Shown in pieces: positions 5,014-28,495 of a stretch of DNA of 28,495 nt; position 1 is the first letter of the stretch, and the number at the start of each line of letters is the position of its first letter. The stretch lies in the IMG/VR virus record IMGVR_UViG_3300020450_000074, positions 1-28,495 of that record. One strand, given 5' to 3'. A program made the translations under genes and the position numbers. This stretch comes from a virus. A model generated the notes under the pieces. That model ran no database searches. It was not told the DNA's origin and saw nothing but the letters and a program-made list of their open reading frames with translations.

Positions 5014-7935
5014 TCAATCATTTGGTCTAGTTAGAAACTTTAAATTAACATCTGTATCAATAGTTTGCTTTATAGCAAGCTCCCTTGCATGTCGTAGTTC
5101 TGCTTTCATCATATCCATTTTTTCTTCGTTTGTAGCTAAATTTATATATTCCTTAGATACTATCATTTTATTCAATCTAGATAACAAATTAAAATCTTCT
5201 CTATAGCCAGGCTCATTTGGAGACATAAGTTTGCCATCGTCATTTTCATATAAAGAATTTATGTTTTTTACATATTTATTATATTGTCTATCATTGAATT
5301 TTATTCCGTTGTAACTTCGTCTATGAAAAGAAAAACTTTCCCCAGTTTTTTCTATAAGAGATATAATTTCTTTATCTAATTTTGAAAAATCACCACGACC
5401 AACTCTAAAAGGATTATAATAGTTAGCTGATGTGCCTTTTAACTGTCCATCCACATCCTCAACATAATTGGTTTGTAATATTGGCCTTCCCCAAAAATCT
5501 AATGCTGGCTCAAGTTCATTACTAAATCTTGGATTACCACTTTTAGCAACATTCAAAGCTTTGTAAAAACCTTCCATAAATTTTGGCATGGGGCTTCTTG
5601 TAACTGCATCAAGTTGTTCTTCATTTAACATTGTATTGCTTGCATATGGGTTTTGAACTCTTTCTAATGTTCTTGTAAAAGATGTTGCTCCTGGCACATT
5701 TAAAGTTGATGGAAGGCCTAAATATTGATCAACAACACCGATATTTGAGAAAACAACACCACCTGATTGCTCTCCAAAATATTTTACAAATCTATCCATA
5801 ACATCTTCGTTTGTGCCATGTGGATTTCCCATAGCTTTAGTAAGCTCGGATACACCCTGGAGAAAAGGCATATTCATCGCATAATCTGCCACAGCTAATG
5901 TTCCAGCTTTGTACATTGCTTCTAAAGAAAGCAGATCGCCTTCACCTGAATTTCTTGCATAGTATTGATAATCTGATGCCATAGCTAAAATACCTGACAA
6001 GGGATCAAATCTTGAAAAAGTAACGTATTTAAATGTGTCATCCTCTTGTTTAAAACCAATACTATATTGTGGCACTCCAGCATCTCTCATAATTTTTTTA
6101 GCCATTTTATTTGTTGGGCCACTGCCTACAATCTTAATATCATCTCCAAAATAACCATCAGCTAACAAAACAAACGATGCAAATATACTATTACCAAGTA
6201 TAAGCTTGCTCATAGCTTGATCAAACTCTTTACCGGTAGGACCAGTTTGTCCAGGTAACTTACCTTTTAATGCCTTATATATTGGTGAATAATTAAATGT
6301 TCTATCAAACACTTCTTTTACAATATTAGTTGGTGTTCTTGAAAAAGGTACAATAATTTTCATTCCTGGTAAATTTGCAAACTGAACAAAAGATTGATAA
6401 ATACCTTCAGGATTATCTTGAAATGTTCTTATCTTGGCTTCCTTACTCATCATATCTCTAACATGTTGAGGTGGCTCTGTCATAATATCTTGATATATCT
6501 GCTTTGCTTTCGTAGTTGCTTCCTCTTTATCAACACCTGATCTTATAAGAGTTTCATATGTGATGCTTTGTTCTCTATGAGCTTCTCTAAAAAGGACTGC
6601 CCGTTCTGACAAAACTTTAAAAAACTCATCTTCTGTTGCAAGAAACCTTCCTGGTATTCTTGTCATTATACCTAGTAAATCTAGTGCAGATGGTGCAACT
6701 TCTCCTCTTGCTAGATTTTTAAATACGTCATTAAGATTGTCTGTTCTGCCGATTGCTCTTCTATTTTTTAAATCTATTTTTGATGCAAAGTCACCAGGTG
6801 TACCAGTTAATAATGTCGCACCACTACTCTTCCAAGCATCTCCTACAACATCTGTTAGTCTACCAGTTTTTAAAGCTTCTCCAAACAAAGCATTTATAAG
6901 ACCATGTGATTCATGTAATATTTCACCAGCATAAACACGATCACCTATCTGTCCTTTTCTACCACCTAAAGTTCTTACATTTCCAACAAAACTTGCCAAA
7001 CCAGTTTCAAGAGTTCTAGCAATTTGGAACATTGAGTTACCAGCCATATTTATAATATGTGTTATAGGGGATGAAAGTAGGGCATTTATATAACCTTCCA
7101 TAGCAACATCGTATGTTTTCATGAGCAACCCTGATCTTGCATATGAAGCACGGCCAGTTGATGGCAAAGCAAGATAAGCATTAGCATGATAATCTATAAG
7201 ACCATCATCTAAATTATTAACAAAATCATCTAACTTTTGTGTGTACTCAGTCAAGTCTATGTTTTGTAATTTTGAAACTGACCTTACAACTGCCAATCCT
7301 CTACCATACTCAGAAACAACTCCTGATACTTGGGCAGATAAATTGCTTTGAATTGTTGCTAGCACAGAAAGTTTTTTATATAAATTTTCTTTTTGTCCTT
7401 GGTCAGTTGTTTTAAGTATTTTTTTAGATGTGCTTTCTAACTCACTTCCTAACTTCATCATAGCTATCAAACCACCAATAGTATCTTCTGCCGGAACTAA
7501 TTCACCAGGTTTTCTTTTAAGAAATTTATTTGCGATATTTGTAGCACCAGTTGCTTGGGCCATAGCTACCATCTCTTCTATAGAAGCTGATGGCCTTCTT
7601 AAAAAAGCAAACAACTCTTTGTTGTTACTTTTTATCTTTAGCATCAATTCTTCAATGTTGATTTTCTGTCCTATATCAACCACACCATTTTTAGTTGAAA
7701 CAAAATTATGGACAAGTCTGGATAAATCCAAACCTTTGCCTTTATATCCTATTTCAGTCAAAGCATCATTCAGAGCATTTACATCACTTTCTGAAGCACC
7801 TCTGATAATTATTTCATCTTGACCAGTAATTGTTACGTCATCTTCAGGTGCTGTAAATTTTCTAATTTTTTCTTGTTTCTTCTCTATTTTTTTACCAGCT
7901 TTGAGAATAGATAATAATATACTTTTAGGATTCAT
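5014..7935 (-). CDS. Large internal virion / DNA ejection protein (gp16-position)
   Basis: This is the longest gene in the window (973 aa from ATG 7935). That start has AAGGAG 6 nt upstream and overlaps the previous stop by 11 nt; the ATG at 7950 lacks such a site. The sequence is mostly helical and charged. A hydrophobic segment 'EGYINALLSSPITHIINMAGNS' at about residues 278-299 resembles the 'LLSGPKTHLVNxxSN' motif of large polyvalent phage proteins. A second hydrophobic stretch (KLILGNSIFASFVLLADGYF) lies near residue 590. No lytic transglycosylase motif is visible. Its size and position, last of the internal-protein genes and just before the fibre gene, match T7 gp16, a core protein ejected with the DNA. 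The role is therefore inferred from size and synteny. Confidence 0.7.
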   Translation of the reverse strand: MNPKSILLSILKAGKKIEKKQEKIRKFTAPEDDVTITGQDEIIIRGASESDVNALNDALTEIGYKGKGLDLSRLVHNFVSTKNGVVDIGQKINIEELMLKIKSNNKELFAFLRRPSASIEEMVAMAQATGATNIANKFLKRKPGELVPAEDTIGGLIAMMKLGSELESTSKKILKTTDQGQKENLYKKLSVLATIQSNLSAQVSGVVSEYGRGLAVVRSVSKLQNIDLTEYTQKLDDFVNNLDDGLIDYHANAYLALPSTGRASYARSGLLMKTYDVAMEGYINALLSSPITHIINMAGNSMFQIARTLETGLASFVGNVRTLGGRKGQIGDRVYAGEILHESHGLINALFGEALKTGRLTDVVGDAWKSSGATLLTGTPGDFASKIDLKNRRAIGRTDNLNDVFKNLARGEVAPSALDLLGIMTRIPGRFLATEDEFFKVLSERAVLFREAHREQSITYETLIRSGVDKEEATTKAKQIYQDIMTEPPQHVRDMMSKEAKIRTFQDNPEGIYQSFVQFANLPGMKIIVPFSRTPTNIVKEVFDRTFNYSPIYKALKGKLPGQTGPTGKEFDQAMSKLILGNSIFASFVLLADGYFGDDIKIVGSGPTNKMAKKIMRDAGVPQYSIGFKQEDDTFKYVTFSRFDPLSGILAMASDYQYYARNSGEGDLLSLEAMYKAGTLAVADYAMNMPFLQGVSELTKAMGNPHGTNEDVMDRFVKYFGEQSGGVVFSNIGVVDQYLGLPSTLNVPGATSFTRTLERVQNPYASNTMLNEEQLDAVTRSPMPKFMEGFYKALNVAKSGNPRFSNELEPALDFWGRPILQTNYVEDVDGQLKGTSANYYNPFRVGRGDFSKLDKEIISLIEKTGESFSFHRRSYNGIKFNDRQYNKYVKNINSLYENDDGKLMSPNEPGYREDFNLLSRLNKMIVSKEYINLATNEEKMDMMKAELRHARELAIKQTIDTDVNLKFLTRPND

Positions 7936-18605: not shown

Positions 18606-20129
18606 CTATGCAAATACGTTGAAGTCGGTTTTGGCTACAAATGGTTGGCTGTATGATTTATTACCTCTAGTCATTCTTCTCATCTCACCACCACCCAGCA
18701 GACAATAACCAACACTATCGCCAACATGGGAATGTTCATTTTTATTTGGTTTATCTCTGAATCTTTCCTGACCAGCCCCTACAGCTACCCTGGTAAAGTG
18801 ATAGCCACCGGATAGTGACTTTCTTAGTCTAAGACATTTTCTATTGACTAGGAAACCAGGCTTGCCTTGTATCAGTCTATTCATCGGCATAGCGACTGCT
18901 TCTCGTCTAACTTTAAAATCATTAGTGGCAGTTGGCCTGGCCAGTATCCCATGTGTTTTTAGAAACTCAAAAGATGTCTGCTCATAGATACCTTCTCTTG
19001 AAGCACCAGCCGGATCACCCCAAACCATAAACTCATTATTTTTTGGAAACCTGATTGCCATTTCTGACTTCAACAGATTCACAAATCTATCCAGGCCCAT
19101 GTCAAAAGTTACAATCTCATGTAAGACATGCCATGCTCCATTTGGCATTTTCTGAGCAAAGACAGCCGAGGGAGTAAGTCCAAAGTCCAGTCCTACTTGT
19201 ACTGGTATATTCTCATCGACCTCTAGATCAGCAGACATTGTGCTGTCATCATATTCAGGCCATACCGGCCTTCCTTCCTGAACGTAAGTATACTTGCCTT
19301 CAGCATAGCATCTTACCCAGTCTAAATTTTTACCACCAAGCAACTGATCATAATATCCATTAGGTAGATTATGTAAGTTCTCAGCCTTTGGATTTGTTTT
19401 AAACCAGCGACCACCAGCCGATATATAACCCTGGGCTTCAGGTATTTCTTTTGGTACATCTTTCAATGGCACTTCTAAAACACCACCTGGTTGCCGGTAA
19501 AACTTCCAGGCAAACTTGCCTTTAGGTTTTTCTTTCTCAGCTAATTTATACATCCAGTGATCATCATCACATGGGTTGCTGTCCATCCATATTCCTCGCC
19601 AGGTACATCCACCATCAGCCATAGAAGGATATCTTCCCACCCTATGAGACAATCCATCAATAACAGCTTTTGGCAACTCCCGTGCTTCATTTACGAATGC
19701 CCCGGTCAGTTCAAGAGATAACAGCTTCCTGGTATCCTTGGGCTGATCTAATGCCAGGAATATTACTTCACAATCTATACCGGATGCATTGCCCCTGGCT
19801 GGTAGTTTTAGATGATGTTTGATCGGTGGTGACCAGTGAAGGCCACCCCAAATATTCTCAGGAAACAATTCTAACCAGGTTTTTATCGTAGTGGTTTTGA
19901 GCATAGGATAGCTGTTTCTAACAACAACAAACCTTGAATATCTTACACCATCCCTGGGTGACGGCTTCTGCTGTACAGCCCGTTTAAATACCTCAGCACA
20001 ACTAGCATACGACTTACCTGATCCCACCGGACCAATCAATCCTCTAACAAAGCTATCATCCTTTAAGAACTTCCAAACAGTAGGTGAGGTACTAAAATCT
20101 AAATTTAATTTATCAGGTTTTTCTGTCAT
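18606..20129 (-). CDS. terL: Terminase large subunit (packaging ATPase/nuclease)
   Basis: From ATG 20129 the protein has 507 residues. Walker A is GPVGSGKS (33-40), with adenine-site residues VRNSYPMLKTTT following; the Walker B/catalytic region is LTGAFVNEARELP. The nuclease half has 'VQVGLDFGLTPSAVF' and FMVWGDPAGASREG as acidic active-site segments and HSHVGDSVGYCLLGG as the last one. It cuts concatemeric DNA and drives it into the prohead through the portal. A TTG at 20159 would add 10 residues; I prefer ATG 20129 because it makes a 4-nt ATGA overlap with the upstream stop and has AGGAG 10 nt before it, but the start remains open. It resembles T7/podovirus-type TerL. Confidence 0.93.
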   Translation of the reverse strand: MTEKPDKLNLDFSTSPTVWKFLKDDSFVRGLIGPVGSGKSYASCAEVFKRAVQQKPSPRDGVRYSRFVVVRNSYPMLKTTTIKTWLELFPENIWGGLHWSPPIKHHLKLPARGNASGIDCEVIFLALDQPKDTRKLLSLELTGAFVNEARELPKAVIDGLSHRVGRYPSMADGGCTWRGIWMDSNPCDDDHWMYKLAEKEKPKGKFAWKFYRQPGGVLEVPLKDVPKEIPEAQGYISAGGRWFKTNPKAENLHNLPNGYYDQLLGGKNLDWVRCYAEGKYTYVQEGRPVWPEYDDSTMSADLEVDENIPVQVGLDFGLTPSAVFAQKMPNGAWHVLHEIVTFDMGLDRFVNLLKSEMAIRFPKNNEFMVWGDPAGASREGIYEQTSFEFLKTHGILARPTATNDFKVRREAVAMPMNRLIQGKPGFLVNRKCLRLRKSLSGGYHFTRVAVGAGQERFRDKPNKNEHSHVGDSVGYCLLGGGEMRRMTRGNKSYSQPFVAKTDFNVFA

Positions 20130-20974
20130 CCAGTACATTCTCCTAAGTTTGCTTGGCAAAAATATCCTTGTTGATCAAATACCCAATCACTTTGTCTTTC
20201 TACATTATCTTTGAGTAAATGCATTTTTCTATCATGGTTAAAAAAACCATAGTCACCACGATGTTTATGTTTGTTTTCTAAGTCTAACCACCACTCAAAC
20301 TTTTCAGGAAACTCTTTGCACAACATAGCTAACTGATCTTCAGATTTCAAAAAACAGCCGTCACAATTTCCATACATAGTTTTGTTTCTAACAACTGGTA
20401 AATTTAATTTAAAATTTTTTTTTGCCCAAAAATCATCGATCATTTGTGCAGTTACTTTGTTTTCTCCTAATGGAAACCACCTGGTAAACACATCTTTTTT
20501 TTGTTTGGTATTTAGTCTTGTTGGCTCATCGTATCTAATACCAACAGCATTAACCCAATTTCTCCAACCTAATTCAAGTGGATTTCGTAAATATCTTTTT
20601 GCTGTTCTAATTTTTAATTCAATCGTACAAAATCTCATCAAGACATTTGGTAAAACTTTTTTGTACTGTATTAGTTTTTCAAAAGGCTCACCATTACGAC
20701 TAGCTGTTTCGTGATTAACTTCCTTGTAAGTAACTTTTCCATCAACAATATCATATTCCAACCAAACAATATTTACATTCCATCTATCAGAACATTCCTG
20801 AACAAAATCCAAAGTCTGTTCCATCTCTCGCCCAGTATTAGTAAATATAACTTTTGCTCGATCAGGCAGTCCATTGTTAGCTTCAAGTATTTTGTAAAGC
20901 ATATAGCCACTGGTCCTACCACCACTAAAACTAATCTGCACATTTCCTTCAGGTAAAAGATAATTATTTGTCAT
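20126..20974 (-). CDS. PP-loop ATPase, PAPS-reductase-like (CysH/DndC superfamily)
   Basis: 282 residues. The PP-loop SFSGGRTSGYM (residues ~15-25) and the following strand VIFTNTGREMEQT are typical of the adenine-nucleotide alpha hydrolase superfamily (PAPS reductase, DndC, sulfurtransferases). Cysteines at about 116 (RFCTIELK), 194 and 197 (NCDGC), 209, 273 and 280 could bind an Fe-S cluster or zinc. The ECGLH C-terminal motif of true PAPS reductase is absent, so sulfate assimilation is unlikely. It lies between the small and large terminase genes, with an 11-nt overlap upstream and a 4-nt overlap downstream. It may activate a substrate by adenylation in a nucleic-acid modification, but the target is unknown. 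Start ATG 20974 has a TAGGA site. Confidence 0.8.
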   Translation of the reverse strand: MTNNYLLPEGNVQISFSGGRTSGYMLYKILEANNGLPDRAKVIFTNTGREMEQTLDFVQECSDRWNVNIVWLEYDIVDGKVTYKEVNHETASRNGEPFEKLIQYKKVLPNVLMRFCTIELKIRTAKRYLRNPLELGWRNWVNAVGIRYDEPTRLNTKQKKDVFTRWFPLGENKVTAQMIDDFWAKKNFKLNLPVVRNKTMYGNCDGCFLKSEDQLAMLCKEFPEKFEWWLDLENKHKHRGDYGFFNHDRKMHLLKDNVERQSDWVFDQQGYFCQANLGECTG

Positions 20975-21615: not shown

Positions 21616-21655
21616 GTAAAACTCCTTTATGAAAAAATGGAAAATATTTTTGTGA

Positions 21656-21696
21656 GACCCCCCGTATATGTATATGACCGGGGAGGGGGTAGGGTC
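21656..21696. promoter_or_regulatory. GC-rich hairpin in the leader before the terminase block
   Basis: In very AT-rich surroundings the plus strand has GACCCCCCG at 56-64 of the 21.6-kb block (21656-21664), a 14-nt loop containing TATATGTATATG, CGGG at 21679-21682, a G-rich bulge and GGGTC at 21692-21696. GACCC pairs with GGGTC and CCCG with CGGG, giving a nine-pair stem with a one-sided bulge. No T-run follows on either strand, so a rho-independent terminator is not supported. It lies in the 5' leader of the minus-strand transcript that begins with the small gene at 21615. Possible roles are a leader regulatory element or part of the packaging site. Confidence 0.5.
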
Positions 21697-21713
21697 GCAC
21701 TTTGCAGTCTGAC

Positions 21714-21719
21714 ATTATA
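21714..21719 (-). promoter_or_regulatory. Candidate -10 box of the packaging/late operon promoter
   Basis: The minus strand reads TATAAT here, a perfect sigma70 -10 hexamer, in a gap with no gene and about 100 bp before the first codon of the downstream gene. A good -35 at 16-18 nt is not present; the upstream sequence is an alternating CACACACA tract with TTTAGA further away. The start of transcription would be near 21707, so the GC-rich hairpin would be transcribed in the leader. The box could be served by an activator, or be chance in an AT-rich tract. Confidence 0.35.
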
Positions 21720-21768
21720 TTATTATTGTGTGTGTACATAATCTAAACGACCATCTAGTTCTTGTACA

Positions 21769-22893
21769 TCAAGTGTATCTTTTATTCATTTTATTTACTA
21801 GCCCCTTAATTAATTGCTTGGTGTCTTTTGGTTTACTTACTTTCTTTTGCCACATACTCTTGAAGTAAGCTATCGTGTATGGTGGTCTTGATCTATCCTG
21901 GTTGCATCTATTCAATACCTTAGTAACTTCTTTCATGAATGCATCTATCGTTACTCCAGCTTCTATCATCTCTTCAGCTATTGCTTCTTCTCTCTTGCTC
22001 CATCGCCATTGACCTCGTGTCTTGCAGATATCGTCTAGTGCATGTGAATAACTTCTTAACAATTCAAAAACTTTATCCTTAATAATATTATTATTAGTTA
22101 TAGTATTATAGTTCTGTACAACATCATTGTGTTGTGTATCGGCACAACATCTAGTGTTGTATAACTCCTTCTTATTCACAACCTGACGTTGTATATCTTG
22201 GGCTTTTAAATAGCCTTTTTCTATGGGTGAAAGTAGGCCACAACCGATTTTATTCCAGGCTTCAATAGTCTGTTTACCTGACAGATAAGTGACCATGGCA
22301 TTGTAGACTAGATCATATGGAAAGAACTCAGTCTCATCATTAATATACTTCTGAGTAATATCATTAGCCAGCTTCTCTTGTGCCGGTGATAACTTATTCT
22401 GTTTCTTTTCTATCTTCTTAAATGTTTCTTCTGCTTTATTCTGTTCTACAATAGGATCAGTAGATGTTTTTATTAGCTGAGTATCGCTGATAGCTGGATC
22501 ATATATGATACGATAAGTAGCAGTCTTTTTACCCTTCTGACGTAGGGCATTCTCATTAAGTATCTTCTTAATATATCCCCAATCAATAAGCTTAACTATC
22601 TGCCTGGATATAGCTTGCTGAGACCGGTTAAGTCTTTTAGCCAGGAGAAGCTGTGATGGAAAAGCTGTACCTGATTGACCTGAAACATAAGAACACAACA
22701 CACATAACACCTGGAGTGCTGATGGATTGTTAAGTATCCTAATATCAGCTAAAGCTCTTGAAGGTATATTGATGTAAGGTGAGGGTGATTGCTCATTAGA
22801 AATCCTATACTTTTTAGGTGGCAATGTTATCTGCTCTCTTGCCTTCAATATCTCCTGGGCCTTATCAATCTTAGGAACATTAATCATATTCAT
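21769..22893 (-). CDS. Replication-initiator-like protein with winged helix (lambda O-like layout)
   Basis: 374 residues. The N-terminal third contains a winged helix (about 56-112): NPSALQVLCVLCSYVSG, then FPSQLLLAKRLNRSQQAISR as the helix-turn-helix and LIDWGYIKKI leading to the wing. This matches N-terminal domains of phage replication initiators (helix_turn_helix_36 type). The middle (about 140-270) is polar, with a low-complexity Asn/Gln-rich stretch at ~245-272. The C-terminal part has 'WRWSKREEAIAEEMIEAGVT' and RPPYTIAYFKSMWQKKV, which may bind a helicase or its loader. The DNA of the low-complexity stretch holds three inverted repeats and an AT-rich tract, as in lambda O. The start overlaps the methyltransferase gene by 14 nt. 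It could instead be a transcription regulator. Confidence 0.65.
   Translation of the reverse strand: MNMINVPKIDKAQEILKAREQITLPPKKYRISNEQSPSPYINIPSRALADIRILNNPSALQVLCVLCSYVSGQSGTAFPSQLLLAKRLNRSQQAISRQIVKLIDWGYIKKILNENALRQKGKKTATYRIIYDPAISDTQLIKTSTDPIVEQNKAEETFKKIEKKQNKLSPAQEKLANDITQKYINDETEFFPYDLVYNAMVTYLSGKQTIEAWNKIGCGLLSPIEKGYLKAQDIQRQVVNKKELYNTRCCADTQHNDVVQNYNTITNNNIIKDKVFELLRSYSHALDDICKTRGQWRWSKREEAIAEEMIEAGVTIDAFMKEVTKVLNRCNQDRSRPPYTIAYFKSMWQKKVSKPKDTKQLIKGLVNKMNKRYT
22081..22192. other. Candidate replication origin inside the initiator gene
   Basis: Three inverted repeats with ACAAC/GTTGT arms stand in a 75-bp stretch: ACAACATCATTGTGTTGT (22118-22135, 6-bp arms), ACAACATCTAGTGTTGT (22144-22160, 6-bp arms) and ACAACCTGACGTTGT (22178-22192, 5-bp arms). 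Their centres are about 25 and 33 bp apart. Next to them, at 22081-22116, lies an almost pure A+T tract that could unwind easily. A lone ACAAC half-site is at 22240-22244. Iteron-like sites plus an AT-rich tract in the middle of an initiator gene is the arrangement of lambdoid origins. The function is inferred. Confidence 0.55.
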
Positions 22894-23854
22894 CTACTAT
22901 ATCCCTGATGGCCTGAAAGAAAACTGCTGCACATTGTGGTATTATACTATTTCCAAGTGCCTTCAATTTATCTGCCCTTTGTTCTTCTCCTTTGACAACT
23001 CTTGGCAAGTCTTTTGGTTCGATGGTGTAATCGTAAGCCAGTCTTTGGGATATCCCATCAGCCAGGTTACCCATTTTGAGGAAAGACTTCCGACCTGATC
23101 CTTGTTCTTGTTCTTTTCCTTGTGTATCTGATATGCCATTTCTGTTTCCAGATACTTCTTGTATCTTAGCTTTGCCATGTTCTCTGACAATCCCATTGAC
23201 ATTCCTATCGATGCTCTCGGTGTCGGCCAGATCTTCTGATTCTCCATTTGCGAAACTGCTGTTACAAGTGTTATCTGACCATCTTTTTCCTTCAGATGTT
23301 TCTCTGACCTCGGACCTCTCTTTCCATCCCATGCATTCGGTGTCGGCCACAAGCTCTCCAATGATCCAGCATCTATCTCTTCTGTGTGGTAATCCGAGTG
23401 CATATGCAGATGGAATGACAAAGCTTGCGACCCTATAGCCGATGCTTTCCAGGTCATTGACCGATCTTGGCAATCCCATTGGCATGTTAACAAATCCTCG
23501 CACATTTTCTCCAATGACAAACTTCGGTAAAATCTGTTCAATAATGGAAACCATTTCTGGCCAGAGATCACGACCTTTTTGATCCTCGTGTCCTTCTTTT
23601 TTGCCAGCATTTGACCAGGGCTGACATGGGAATCCTCCACAGATAACGTCAACATATCCACTAAATCGTACTGCATTTTGTTCAAGCTCCTTTATGTCTG
23701 TATAAATCGGTACATTTGGAAAATTCTTTTTTAAAACTTTCTGACAGAAGGGATCAATTTCACAGAAACCAACTGTCTCAAATCCACCAACTATTCTTTC
23801 ACTTGCATATGCAAACCCACCAATACCACTGAAAAGATCAAGGACCTTCAGCAT
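22880..23854 (-). CDS. C5-cytosine DNA methyltransferase (Dcm family)
   Basis: 324 residues with the standard motif order: I DLFSGIGG (6-13), IV GGFPCQPW with catalytic Cys77, VI ENVRG (116-120), VIII LPHRRDRCW (155-163) and X ALGNSIIPQ (299-307). It transfers a methyl group from S-adenosylmethionine to C5 of cytosine in a short DNA target. The recognition region (about 170-290) is low in conserved folds and carries repeated VADTE/LADTE/ISDTQ blocks. No partner restriction endonuclease is clear, so it is probably an orphan methyltransferase protecting phage DNA or marking its origin. It directly follows the nuclease gene (stop 23855, start 23854) and overlaps the initiator gene by 14 nt. A long second frame lies inside it. 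Confidence 0.92.
   Translation of the reverse strand: MLKVLDLFSGIGGFAYASERIVGGFETVGFCEIDPFCQKVLKKNFPNVPIYTDIKELEQNAVRFSGYVDVICGGFPCQPWSNAGKKEGHEDQKGRDLWPEMVSIIEQILPKFVIGENVRGFVNMPMGLPRSVNDLESIGYRVASFVIPSAYALGLPHRRDRCWIIGELVADTECMGWKERSEVRETSEGKRWSDNTCNSSFANGESEDLADTESIDRNVNGIVREHGKAKIQEVSGNRNGISDTQGKEQEQGSGRKSFLKMGNLADGISQRLAYDYTIEPKDLPRVVKGEEQRADKLKALGNSIIPQCAAVFFQAIRDIVDEYD
22963..23685 (-). other. Long alternative-frame ORF within the methyltransferase gene (240 codons)
   Basis: This frame is +1 relative to the methyltransferase and stays open for 240 codons although the DNA is AT-rich. The translation has motifs that also occur in annotated phage proteins: 'DRSMTWKASAIGSQALSFHL', two WPTP blocks (LWPTPNAWDGKRG and IWPTPRASIG) and SSKWVTWLMGYPKDWL. 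Each WPTP lies exactly on a V/L-ADTE block of the methyltransferase, since TGGCCGACACCGA encodes both. No good ribosome binding site or separate promoter is evident. It may be translated, or it may be a shadow of a conserved DNA pattern. Confidence 0.25.
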
Positions 23855-24554: not shown

Positions 24555-24722
24555 ATGTGGAAGATTACAAATATTGGTGAGTGGAAAGTTTACAAAGGTG
24601 ATGCACCTGGTAGTGCTTGGAAGTGGGTTGCAATGCATGAGGATAAAGTCATTGATACATTTCCTACTAAAAAGAAGGCAATGGAATTTGTCGCACAATA
24701 TATACAAGAAGGAGCAAAGTAA
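24555..24722 (+). CDS. Small protein of unknown function (55 aa), first rightward gene
   Basis: ATG 24555 opens 55 codons ending in TAA at 24720-24722, which overlaps the ATG of the recombinase by one base (TAATG). The sequence starts MWKITNIGEWKVYKGDAPGS, has AWKWVAMHEDKVIDTFPTKK and ends with a helix KAMEFVAQYIQEGAK. A beta sheet followed by one helix and the aromatic-rich first half resemble a small beta-beta-beta-alpha domain; no family is recognised. The upstream site is only AGGG, 8 nt before the ATG. Its position as the first gene of the rightward operon and its coupling to the recombinase suggest a regulator or excision partner, but that is only a suggestion. Confidence 0.6.
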   Translation: MWKITNIGEWKVYKGDAPGSAWKWVAMHEDKVIDTFPTKKKAMEFVAQYIQEGAK

Positions 24723-25474
24723 TGAGGGTTAAGAATACTGCCGGTCAAGAACATACTGGTATCTATTGTGCCTATGTAAGGGTATCGACAGACAGTCAGG
24801 ATGTTGCCAGGCAAGAGATGGAGATCAAGAAGTGGCTCAATGGTGGTGATCACCAGGTCATGTGGTTTAGGGAAGAGGGTGTCTCAGGTAAAATTTCACC
24901 TTCAAAAAGACCTGAGCTATCTAAATGTATTGAGACTGCCAAGGTTAACAAGGCTACTATCATTGTAGCTGACCTGGAAAGATTCAGTCGTAGGATGCAA
25001 GATACACTGGACTTCTTTGAAGAGAAGCTGGAGAAGGGCAAGATCAAGTTTGTTGTCTGCAATGAGCCTGAGATATCCGAAAGCTGGGAAAGGTTCTCTA
25101 TGAAAGCTTACTTTGGTGCTATGGAAAGACGTAGGATAGCTGATAGAACTAAGTCAGGTCTTACCAAGATCAAGGAAGAGCTAAGACAAAAGGGTAAGTA
25201 TCAAACCAGGTCAGGCCGTACTATTACTAAGCTTGGCATCCATGATCATATGGATAAGGCAAGAGCTAGGGCTGGTGAAGTTGTAAAGGCTGAGAGTGAT
25301 GGTTTTGCTCAGATTGTAGGACCTACTATCCAGGCCCTTCTGAACTCAGGCATGACTTATAGAGAAGTCGCAATCAACTTAAATCAAATAGGTACAACAA
25401 CTGCAAGAGGTGGTGAGTGGTATGCTTCTACAGTTCGTAACGTCATCAAAAGATTGGAGAGTATGAATGAATAA
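24722..25474 (+). CDS. Serine recombinase (resolvase/invertase family)
   Basis: 250 residues. The catalytic domain has AYVRVSTDSQD (17-27) with Arg20 and nucleophile Ser22, GVSGK (53-57), the arginine block ADLERFSRR (83-91), and the long E helix 'AYFGAMERRRIADRTKSGLT' (129-148). The C-terminal part has 'NSGMTYREVAINLNQIGTTT' then ARGGEWYASTVRNVIKR, the DNA-binding helix-turn-helix of the recombinase family. It is longer than simple resolvases (~185 aa) and much shorter than large serine integrases (~500 aa). It could integrate and excise the phage, resolve dimers or invert a segment; no paired inverted sites were seen near the fibre genes. Integration is plausible because no tyrosine integrase is present. 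Confidence 0.9.
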   Translation: MRVKNTAGQEHTGIYCAYVRVSTDSQDVARQEMEIKKWLNGGDHQVMWFREEGVSGKISPSKRPELSKCIETAKVNKATIIVADLERFSRRMQDTLDFFEEKLEKGKIKFVVCNEPEISESWERFSMKAYFGAMERRRIADRTKSGLTKIKEELRQKGKYQTRSGRTITKLGIHDHMDKARARAGEVVKAESDGFAQIVGPTIQALLNSGMTYREVAINLNQIGTTTARGGEWYASTVRNVIKRLESMNE

Positions 25475-25994
25475 AAAACAATTACAAAATTATCTTGATA
25501 TGGAAATGTCTAAAGTATTGTGTCAGCTTGAGCTTAATATATACCAGGGAAGGCAAGATCGATTGACAACAAAAATACAAAGATATTTTAACTCAACTCC
25601 TCTAAGAAATGCTTTCAATAGAATTGTAACTTACTCTTACATCGTAAACGAGTTTTACACTATATCATGTGTAGCTGATCAACTCAGGACAACAAGACAA
25701 TCAATCTCAAACATGGTCGAAGAGTGTGAAGCTGAAGGCTGGATAGAAGTTGAGAGATCGCCTAATCGTGTTGCATTTAAAGGCACTCAAGAACTTTATG
25801 ATGGGTTCTTATCCTATCTAGAACACCGAAAAGAATTAGCCAGGGATGTGACCAAAGGCAAATGGAATGATCTTACAAGACTAGCCGAATTAGTGGAAAG
25901 TCACTTTACAGTATATGCTAATTTGAGTGACAAACCACATGACATTGATAATCATTCGCAAAATGATAATGTCATAAATAAGGAGATGTCATGA
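25467..25994 (+). CDS. Winged helix-turn-helix protein (MarR-like), candidate regulator
   Basis: 175 residues. The central part forms a winged helix: 'YTISCVADQLRTTRQSISNM' (about 62-81) is the helix-turn-helix with recognition helix at TTRQSISNM, then VEECEAEGWIEVERSPNRVAF is the second helix plus wing. The flanks are helical and polar: an N-terminal KKQLQNYLDMEMSKVLCQLE and a C-terminal 'HRKELARDVTKGKWNDLTRL'. It resembles MarR-type regulators in layout. It overlaps the recombinase by 8 nt and the next gene by 4 nt (ATGA). It is a candidate lysogeny repressor or activator acting on the palindrome upstream. There is no direct evidence of its target. Confidence 0.62.
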   Translation: MNKKQLQNYLDMEMSKVLCQLELNIYQGRQDRLTTKIQRYFNSTPLRNAFNRIVTYSYIVNEFYTISCVADQLRTTRQSISNMVEECEAEGWIEVERSPNRVAFKGTQELYDGFLSYLEHRKELARDVTKGKWNDLTRLAELVESHFTVYANLSDKPHDIDNHSQNDNVINKEMS

Positions 25995-26508: not shown

Positions 26509-26760
26509 ATGGTTAGTAAACAAACACTTAGCGAGAAGAGCCGTTATAGATATAACAGTTTGTCGCATAATATATATATTGGAAGAGGTATAATCAGTGA
26601 GTTTTTGCACAACCATCCAGCTTTTGTAAGCACACTGATGGTCCTAGGTACTATCCTAGCATCTATCTTTACGTTGGTCTACATCTATTACCTACTACAT
26701 TTTGTATGTCTAATTGATGATGCATGCTTCACTCAAAATTTTGGAGTGATCAATGGCTAA
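26509..26760 (+). CDS. Small single-span membrane protein (83 aa)
   Basis: I chose ATG 26509 because it follows AAGGAGATATAAT, a near-ideal ribosome binding site, and because a good promoter lies just upstream; an in-frame ATG at 26389 would add 40 basic residues without a clear site. Residues 1-37 are polar and basic. 'FVSTLMVLGTILASIFTLVY' and IYYLLHFVCLI (about 39-69) form one long or two short membrane helices, with a short tail containing DDACFTQNF. No family is recognised. The stop overlaps the exonuclease gene by 8 nt. A membrane protein before a recombination operon is unusual; an inhibitor of a host process or superinfection exclusion protein is one possibility, without evidence. Confidence 0.58.
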   Translation: MVSKQTLSEKSRYRYNSLSHNIYIGRGIISEFLHNHPAFVSTLMVLGTILASIFTLVYIYYLLHFVCLIDDACFTQNFGVING

Positions 26761-27679
26761 ATATTCAGATGATACTAAGGAGCTAGGTGCTTCAAGAGTG
26801 CCAGCTATAGTTTTGGGTCAGACTAAATTTTCTACTAACGAAAGAGAGAGACAAAAAACTATTCATGCAAGACAAGGTATTCCTACCATTGAATCTGACT
26901 TTGCACAAGATGCAAAGGAAAGAGGTAACTACCTAGAAGAAGCAATTATAGTTTGGTCAATAGACAAGCTTGCCAAGATAGGTGAGGGTGTTGCTGATGT
27001 CAGGGTGCATGATGTCACTGATGGACATAGGATACCGGACCTGGGACTGTGTGCATCTCTAGATGCTATGGTGCAGATAGATGGTGAGATCACAATGCAA
27101 GACCCTCAGACTAAAGGTCACATGATCCTTACTGGTATGGGTGCATTGGAGATTAAAACCACAAACTCAGATGACTTTCCTAGGGCTGACCAGGTCATAC
27201 AACTTCAGACACAATTGCTTTGCAGTGGGTTGAAGTGGGGCATCATTGCTATCTTTGGGAAATCACAAAGACTAAACCTTGTACCTTACAAAGCTGATCA
27301 AGAACTTCATGCTATCATTATGGAAAAGGTCAGTGAGTTTTGGCAGAAGGTTGACTTGGATGAACCATATCCACCATTAGATAATGGTAAACCCTACACC
27401 ATAAACCTAGACCATCTACAAACTAAGAATGAAGTTATTCGTATAGCTATGGACTGGGCCAAGGCTGATGCTGAGGTAAGGGAATGGTCAACTACCAGGC
27501 AAGAATGCCAGGAAGCATTGGAGCTTGTTATGGAAGAAAATGATGCCGAGATAGCTGAGATAGGGGAGTACAGAATACTCAATCCTATCGTCAAAAGAAA
27601 AGCACAACCGGAAAAGACAGTGCCAGCTAAGGAAGCATCTTGGTACAGAAAATTTAAAATTGAAAAGAAGGAGAACTAA
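26753..27679 (+). CDS. YqaJ-type recombination exonuclease
   Basis: 308 residues. The active site follows the YqaJ/lambda-exonuclease pattern: Glu62/Glu63 in GNYLEEAIIVW, Asp104 in LGLCASLDAMV, and Glu133-x-Lys135 in GALEIKTTNSDDFP, followed by the Gln-rich QVIQLQTQLLCSG helix that contacts DNA. These enzymes degrade one strand of double-stranded DNA ends to make 3' single-stranded tails, which the annealing protein coats. The gene lies directly before the RecT-type gene, the usual pairing. A TTGGAG site is 7 nt before ATG 26753. The C-terminal part (about 245-308) is charged and may bind the partner. Its role is in genome replication and repair through recombination. Confidence 0.88.
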   Translation: MAKYSDDTKELGASRVPAIVLGQTKFSTNERERQKTIHARQGIPTIESDFAQDAKERGNYLEEAIIVWSIDKLAKIGEGVADVRVHDVTDGHRIPDLGLCASLDAMVQIDGEITMQDPQTKGHMILTGMGALEIKTTNSDDFPRADQVIQLQTQLLCSGLKWGIIAIFGKSQRLNLVPYKADQELHAIIMEKVSEFWQKVDLDEPYPPLDNGKPYTINLDHLQTKNEVIRIAMDWAKADAEVREWSTTRQECQEALELVMEENDAEIAEIGEYRILNPIVKRKAQPEKTVPAKEASWYRKFKIEKKEN

Positions 27680-27680
27680 T

Positions 27681-28495
27681 ATGACATTACCAACTTTAAA
27701 TCCAACTAACATGACAGAAGCTATGGAGTTCTCTAAGTTTCTAGCATCGTCTACTCACATTCCAAAAGACTTCCAGGGCAATCCCAATAATATCTTGGTA
27801 GCTATTCAGTGGGGATATGAGATTGGCCTAGCACCTATGCAAGCTCTTCAGAATATTGCAGTCATAAATGGTAGGCCGTCACTATGGGGTGATTCAATGA
27901 TTGCAGTTTGCAAGGCACATCCTGATTGGAGAGGTATCAGTGAGACTTATATCGAAGAAGAAGATAAAGCAGTATGTCTGGTCAAAAGAAATGTGCATGG
28001 TGAGATAGAAGAAACGAGGTCTGAGTTCTCATATAAGGATGCACAACGAGCTAACCTTACGAACAAACCTGGTCCTTGGAAGAACTATCCTAAAAGAATG
28101 CTGCAACTTAGGGCTAGGGGCTTTGCTTTGAGGGATGCATTTCCGGATGCCATCAAAGGATTGATCACTGCTGAGGAAGCACAAGATTACCCTGAAAAAA
28201 AAGAGCCTAGGAACGTCACTGATAGCGATAACGATACCAACATGATTGATGATATCAAAAAACAAGTTAAGTCGCTGGAGAAGGCTGAAACAGACGTTAA
28301 ATACATAATGCATTTTATCGGTGATCATCAGCCCATTGTTTACAGTAATCCAAGTGATTTCATCCTAAAATTTTCAGATACCCTAGATAAAATTACCAAG
28401 CTAGACAAACCTGGTGACATGAAGAAAAACTTCTTTAGGGATTTAAGACAAAAAAATTCTGAGACTATTTCCAAGCTTGATCCATTGGAGCAATC
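27681..28495 (+). CDS. recT: RecT-type single-strand annealing protein (partial, runs off the window)
   Basis: ATG 27681 follows AAGGAG 9 nt upstream and one base after the exonuclease stop; 271 codons are visible and the C-terminus is missing. The N-terminal part has 'ILVAIQWGYEIGLAPMQALQ' and NIAVINGRPSLWGDSM; the core has 'TNKPGPWKNYPKRMLQLRAR' followed by GFALRDAFPDAIKGLITAEEA. These are signatures of RecT-family proteins (GPW...YP.RM.Q.RA...a.RdaFPd). The later part is acidic and polar. It anneals complementary strands exposed by the exonuclease and may pair strands during replication or repair of phage DNA. Together with the exonuclease it forms a Red-like system. Confidence 0.88.
   Translation, partial: MTLPTLNPTNMTEAMEFSKFLASSTHIPKDFQGNPNNILVAIQWGYEIGLAPMQALQNIAVINGRPSLWGDSMIAVCKAHPDWRGISETYIEEEDKAVCLVKRNVHGEIEETRSEFSYKDAQRANLTNKPGPWKNYPKRMLQLRARGFALRDAFPDAIKGLITAEEAQDYPEKKEPRNVTDSDNDTNMIDDIKKQVKSLEKAETDVKYIMHFIGDHQPIVYSNPSDFILKFSDTLDKITKLDKPGDMKKNFFRDLRQKNSETISKLDPLEQ

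Follow-up and report, generated by a model that had tools for sequence, protein, structure and literature searches.

The window, which is the whole 28,495 bp of the virus record, carries a gene for a winged-helix protein with three inverted repeats about two thirds of the way along it. In the direction of the gene the order is ACAAC-N5-GTTGT, ACAAC-N7-GTTGT, ACAAC-N8-GTTGT, and then an AT-rich tract (Table 1). The first-pass annotation had placed the three palindromes at exactly these coordinates, and had proposed that they form a lambda-like replication origin bound by the protein encoded around it. It had also pointed to an Asn/Gln-rich linker encoded by the DNA of the array, and this was seen as DIQRQVVNKKELYNTRCCADTQHNDVVQNYNTITNNNII.

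Table 1. Coordinates of the initiator gene, the predicted origin and neighbouring features in the window
Feature	Position	Strand	Basis or remark
Winged-helix replication initiator gene, 374 aa, carrying the predicted origin	21769..22893	-	HTH_36 and PHROG matches; homologues L002-L017, L058-L085
Winged-helix DNA-binding domain, about residues 40-135	22489..22776	-	Pfam match at residues 56-108; Foldseek of domain model
Recognition helix RSQQAISRQ, residues 90-98 (Gln93 at 22615-22617)	22600..22626	-	Pro93 in ATAAC-armed relatives
Accessory middle segment, about residues 164-232	22198..22404	-	Protein alignments; missing from L012-L016
Iteron 1, ACAAC-5-GTTGT, ACAACCTGACGTTGT, predicted initiator-binding palindrome	22178..22192		Arms invariant in relatives
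Iteron 2, ACAAC-7-GTTGT, ACAACATCTAGTGTTGT	22144..22160		Arms invariant in relatives
Iteron 3, ACAAC-8-GTTGT, ACAACATCATTGTGTTGT	22118..22135		Arms invariant; identical 18-mer in L058
AT-rich tract, predicted DNA unwinding element, directly 3' of iterons (gene direction)	22061..22116		Least stable 50-mer
Frozen synonymous block, codons 233-271, iterons and AT tract	22081..22197		2 events against 32.8 expected
Possible host DnaA box TTATTCACA, overlapping iteron 1	22172..22180	+	Kept in 12/12 window-type genes tabulated; not there in L017 subfamily
Second TTATTCACA, opposite side of AT tract	22043..22051	-	Present in some window-type genes
C-terminal part of initiator, residues 276-374	21772..22068	-	Conserved TRGxWRW and PPYT motifs
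PAPS-reductase-like gene	20126..20974		Between small and large terminase genes
GC-rich element	21616..21768		Intergenic
C5 cytosine methyltransferase gene	22880..23854		Between initiator and DUF1064 genes
Serine recombinase gene	24722..25474		
Second winged-helix protein, MarR_2-like	25467..25994		After recombinase
RecE/RecT-type recombination genes	26753..28493		

A GC-rich element, CCCTACCCCCTCCCCGGTC...GGGGGGTCTC, lies in the intergenic region immediately downstream of the initiator gene, and is similar in the related contigs G001 and G002. Both of these contigs begin and end in or beside the element, and their ends overlap by 55 to about 100 bp. The element adjoins the terminase genes, and could be a virion-end (cos) site or an assembly break. 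The PAPS-reductase-like gene between the terminase genes of the window is missing from G001. The initiator of G001 also abuts the DUF1064 gene directly, without the intervening methyltransferase gene of the window, and a different methyltransferase-like gene is found at this place in the diverged relative L017. The second winged-helix protein has a homologue in G001 that gives a weak replication-initiator match, and G006 has no ORF of this type between the recombinase and RecE genes. In L009 (G003, L045) the serine recombinase frame contains an internal TGA, and the gene may be broken.

The description of the gene product as a winged-helix protein was borne out by profile searches, in which it matched Pfam HTH_36 (E 9e-9) and the PHROG family 'replication initiation protein' (E 1.3e-6). 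An O-like PHROG family was matched weakly (E 0.0036), over the winged helix only. The winged helix is N-terminal in the protein, as judged from the HTH_36 match and from a domain model predicted with moderate confidence (mean pLDDT 65). When this model was compared by Foldseek with viral initiator and HTH proteins, the best E value was 1.2e-7; against the PDB it gave weak matches to MarR, ArsR and Rep folds (E 0.01-0.1). A PDB search with the initiator sequence returned zero matches. Structure prediction for the full-length protein was poor (mean pLDDT 46), and the predicted model gave no structural assignment for the C-terminal part, which we infer to be a candidate recruiter of helicase machinery. 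The middle segment, between the winged helix and the origin, seems to be dispensable. In L012-L016 about 70-76 codons have naturally been lost from this segment in frame, unless the other genes gained them. Viral contigs yielded 15 relatives of the initiator gene, bacterial genomes yielded no homologues, and plasmid and phage collections gave weak matches only. A DNA-pattern scan of viral contigs produced several chance single palindromes, which were discarded.

Elsewhere in the window the pattern ACAAC(N2-12)GTTGT occurs only as a singleton at 7611, and no second cluster exists in the window or in any of the contigs G001, G002, G005 and G006, each of which has just the one. In two chance tests, both of them post hoc in that the pattern was picked after being seen, at least three such palindromes arose in 6 of 20,000 synonymous-codon shuffles that kept the protein, and none of 300 Markov shuffles of the window contained three palindromes with the same arms clustered inside 160 bp. 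These results agree with the earlier judgement that repeats at this density are unlikely by chance. As the pattern was chosen after the fact, more weight is given to the tests of conservation and co-variation described below, which are not post hoc. Across the relatives, the spacers of ACAAC palindromes are 5, 7 or 8 bp and never 6, and those of the ATAAC palindromes described below are all 7 bp.

The nearly pure AT tract noticed at 22081-22116 in the first-pass annotation is present, and is one of only two clusters of 36-mers with at least 89% AT in the 28.5 kb. By nearest-neighbour energies, no other 50-mer in the whole window is as unstable as 22061-22110, which adjoins the array. The 50-mer beside the array is also the least stable in the whole of contigs G001, G002 and G006 (about 31 kb each), of which G001 and G002 look complete because their ends overlap. 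In L017 and L058-L063, the least stable 50-mer of the locus lies directly 3' of the array, in some cases overlapping its end. The AT tract is flanked by two copies of TTATTCACA, which are the only matches to TTATNCACA in the window; this arrangement is not kept in the L017 type. Host DnaA may assist at the origin in window-type phages, although the boxes are only suggestive of this.

In a codon alignment of the relatives, synonymous differences per comparable codon were about 0.2-0.35 over most of the gene, and 0.007 over the array. Codons 233-271 of 13 genes contained 2 synonymous changes against 32.8 expected, and none of 100,000 shuffles of the codon columns was as quiet. The same 39 codons contained 18 non-synonymous changes, and the protein is not unusually conserved there. 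A synonymous freeze without unusual protein conservation therefore indicates that the constraint acts on the DNA. Within the array, none of 30 arm positions was variable, compared with 12 of 49 positions in spacers and gaps (Fisher p 0.0025, which is optimistic as the sequences compared are related). L012-L016 are without about 70-76 codons just upstream of the array, yet the array is kept.

The same architecture was found in a diverged subfamily. The initiator of L017 is about 50% identical to the window protein, and four ACAAC-N7/8-GTTGT palindromes are present in the same linker. The peptide encoded there, QHPEVV...NTTLEVV, differs from that of the window, and one of the four palindromes sits in a different reading frame. 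The 17-mer ACAACACTAGAGGTTGT, which is iteron 2 in most close relatives, is also present in L017. Four palindromes each were counted in L058, L059, L061 and L063, and three each in L062 and L081; every relative with a complete linker has 3-4 inverted-repeat copies within its initiator gene. Conservation of the arms among close relatives, which had been put forward as a check on the origin proposal, was thus observed: the arms are invariant, the synonymous sites are frozen, and the array is kept at about 50% identity.

Some relatives carry palindromes with different arms. L060, L077, L078, L079, L080 and L082, in all of which the recognition helix is readable, have no ACAAC palindromes and contain four ATAAC-N7-GTTAT palindromes each, with the identical base change in 8 of 8 half-sites. 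Residue 93 of the recognition helix is proline (RxQPA) in 6 of 6 ATAAC-type initiators, and glutamine in every ACAAC-type protein with the helix covered, as RxQQA or, in L081, ISQQA. Among relatives in which this residue and the arms are both readable, the two segregate together perfectly. The linker was left out of the comparison of alignment columns, because it encodes the arms and must change with them. Outside the linker, only residues 55, 93 and 119 separate the arm types, and all three lie in the winged-helix domain. Neither the middle segment nor the C-terminal part has such a column.

Pairs of closely related initiators with different arms proved to be mosaics. Between L077 (ATAAC) and L081 (ACAAC), identity is 95% over the middle segment and 99% over the C-terminal part, and falls to 77% over the winged helix. 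Comparison of L060 and L080 (ATAAC) with L061 and L062 (ACAAC) gave 91-94% and 92-97% for the same two segments, as against 72-74% for the winged helix. In the mosaics L077/L081, L060/L061 and L080/L062 the arms follow the winged helix, with an intervening segment that is 89-95% identical; sliding identity dips at the winged helix and at the array only, and the stretch between them is intact. The ATAAC type is unclustered in trees of the middle and C-terminal parts, where it needs 4 changes, and is clustered in the winged-helix tree, where it needs 2. It is thus the winged helix, and not its neighbours, that the array follows. Of the in-silico evidence, this co-variation is the strongest, although shared ancestry leaves few independent switches (some two or three mosaics); it supports the view that the initiator reads these palindromes.

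We interpret the array as the replication origin of the phage, lying within the initiator gene and built like ori-lambda, with binding by the initiator, melting of the AT tract and use of host DnaB and the host replisome, and put the probability of this interpretation at about 0.88. At the level of sequence comparison, constraint on the DNA, the architecture of array and AT tract, and the co-variation of winged helix and half-site are established. Array conservation and the joint variation of winged helix and arms give strong support to the original proposal of a lambda-like origin bound by the product of the surrounding gene. GC skew was uninformative as an origin signal, as it follows the gene strand.

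The initiator-like protein might instead bind the palindromes as an operator or a plasmid-partition-like site, with replication starting elsewhere. Winged-helix proteins of this size also include repressors, the PDB look-alikes include MarR, ArsR and TubR, and binding by itself is no proof of origin function. However, the array is about 700 bp into the gene, there is no promoter-like excess over shuffles around it, and a TATAAT-like stretch there is not retained in L015. No Par genes were seen, and the protein matches replication-initiator families. The array also sits on DNA less stable than any other in the contig, a property for which an operator would have no use and which this explanation leaves unaccounted for. 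We regard an operator or partition site as unlikely.

It is more improbable still that the phage serine recombinase uses the palindromes as its recombination site (res or att). On structural grounds this was the strongest competitor, since a res site likewise consists of three imperfect inverted repeats, and the recombinase is encoded 2 kb away, as well as in nearly all relatives. Against this, recombinases that are 96% (L060/L062) and 98% (L082/L081) identical go with different arms, while recombinases only 57-62% identical go with the same arms; the arms of L009 are intact, despite a stop codon in its recombinase frame. No res-like repeats were found in the gap before the recombinase gene. 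The lack of co-variation between arm type and recombinase identity disfavours such a site.

A structured or regulatory mRNA element, as opposed to a DNA site, merits equally little credence. The RNA of the window does fold better than shuffles (z -2.7), but the fold is not shared: L017 gave z -0.4 and the L014 type z -1.8, with other predicted pairings, and no Rfam family was matched. Arms that are identical in every copy, and that all switch together when the winged helix differs, fit recognition by a protein better than base pairing. Finally, the idea that only the amino-acid sequence is conserved and the repeats follow from the peptide, which gains something from the well-conserved linker of window-type relatives, can be dismissed as refuted, because synonymous sites are frozen only at the array block and in the diverged L017 subfamily the motif codes for different peptides and occupies more than one frame.

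For the replication origin, analogy with lambda and SPP1 suggests how the array might act. Initiators, probably as dimers, would bind each palindrome through their winged-helix domains, with one recognition helix per ACAAC half-site. The occupied iteron array would then strain and melt the adjoining AT tract, and the initiator would bring in the host DnaB helicase and the host replisome, with replication starting at the array. No homologues of DnaB, PolA-type (family-A) polymerase or IstB/DnaC were found in 7 relatives, and DnaB was not found in two records of the L017-type subfamily either. Since no DnaB, PolA-type polymerase or DnaC-type loader was found, the replisome is probably that of the host. 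The RecE/RecT-type recombination genes could serve a later, concatemer-forming stage.

The two arm types may represent a one-step natural switch of origin specificity, a proposal whose chances we consider evenly balanced. Replacement of Gln93 by proline, perhaps together with a change at residue 119 in the wing, would re-specify recognition from ACAAC to ATAAC. On this view, the iteron cassette and the winged-helix segment lie on either side of an exchangeable middle but would travel or evolve together within the gene as partners matched to each other, so that a single phage population would hold two origin types incompatible with one another. The paired recognition-helix residue and half-site base offer a ready-made system for studying a joint change of specificity, with both partners written in one gene. 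More generally, a predicted origin has been located and an initiator assigned, from sequence alone, for a group of uncultured marine podoviruses.

The virion had been described as T7-like. PHROG matches in the window to a tail protein and a head-tail adaptor indicate a podovirus-type virion, and to this extent the description is fair; the replication module is not T7-like, in that no PolA-type polymerase was found. Judged by terminase, the closest cultured phage is the Methylophilales phage MEP301, whose terminase is 66% identical to that of the window; the annotation of tail tubular proteins A and B in MEP301 likewise points to a podovirus-type virion. Its authors found no DNA or RNA polymerase genes (PMC8024684). 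MEP301 gp55 (L055, 34057-34662) is distantly homologous to the winged helix of the initiator (hhalign 97%, E 1e-10), and is a candidate for the initiator of that cultured phage. It is annotated as hypothetical, is only 201 aa long, and differs in its recognition helix. It also has no palindrome array, which we count against the origin interpretation.

In SPP1, oriL lies inside gene 38, with repeats beside an AT-rich unwinding element (PMC6316719). As in the window, the origin is within the gene for the origin-binding protein, the replisome organizer gp38. SPP1 differs in that its repeats are direct, that it has a further origin, oriR, and that loader (gp39) and helicase (gp40) are both phage-encoded.

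For lambdoid phages, origins inside the initiator gene with iterons beside an AT-rich region are well established, and lambda uses the host helicase and replisome, as we propose for the window phage (PMC7466680, PMC5043065). When the lambda sequence was measured as a yardstick, four iterons were followed by the AT region, in the same orientation as in the window. In both, then, iterons made of inverted repeats lie within the initiator gene, and the AT-rich unwinding region comes after them in the gene direction. The arms are ACAAC or ATAAC here and of ATCCC type in lambda, and the array is about two thirds along the gene here but in the middle of gene O. The iterons here are 15, 17 or 18 bp long, in 3 or 4 copies, with spacers that vary (5, 7 and 8 bp in the ACAAC types); those of lambda are nearly uniform, and this difference counts against the origin interpretation. 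A P-like partner beside the initiator was not noticed in searches for the DnaB and IstB/DnaC families. The likeness to lambda O drawn in the first-pass annotation holds for the layout, with the origin in the initiator linker, and not for the protein profile: alignment of the initiator with lambda O by hhalign gave a probability of 0.3%, which also counts against the interpretation. The initiator probably works like lambda O, with homology supported only as far as the general group of winged-helix initiators. Embedded iteron origins are already known from lambda O and SPP1 gp38, and what appears unusual here is the clear natural switch in specificity.
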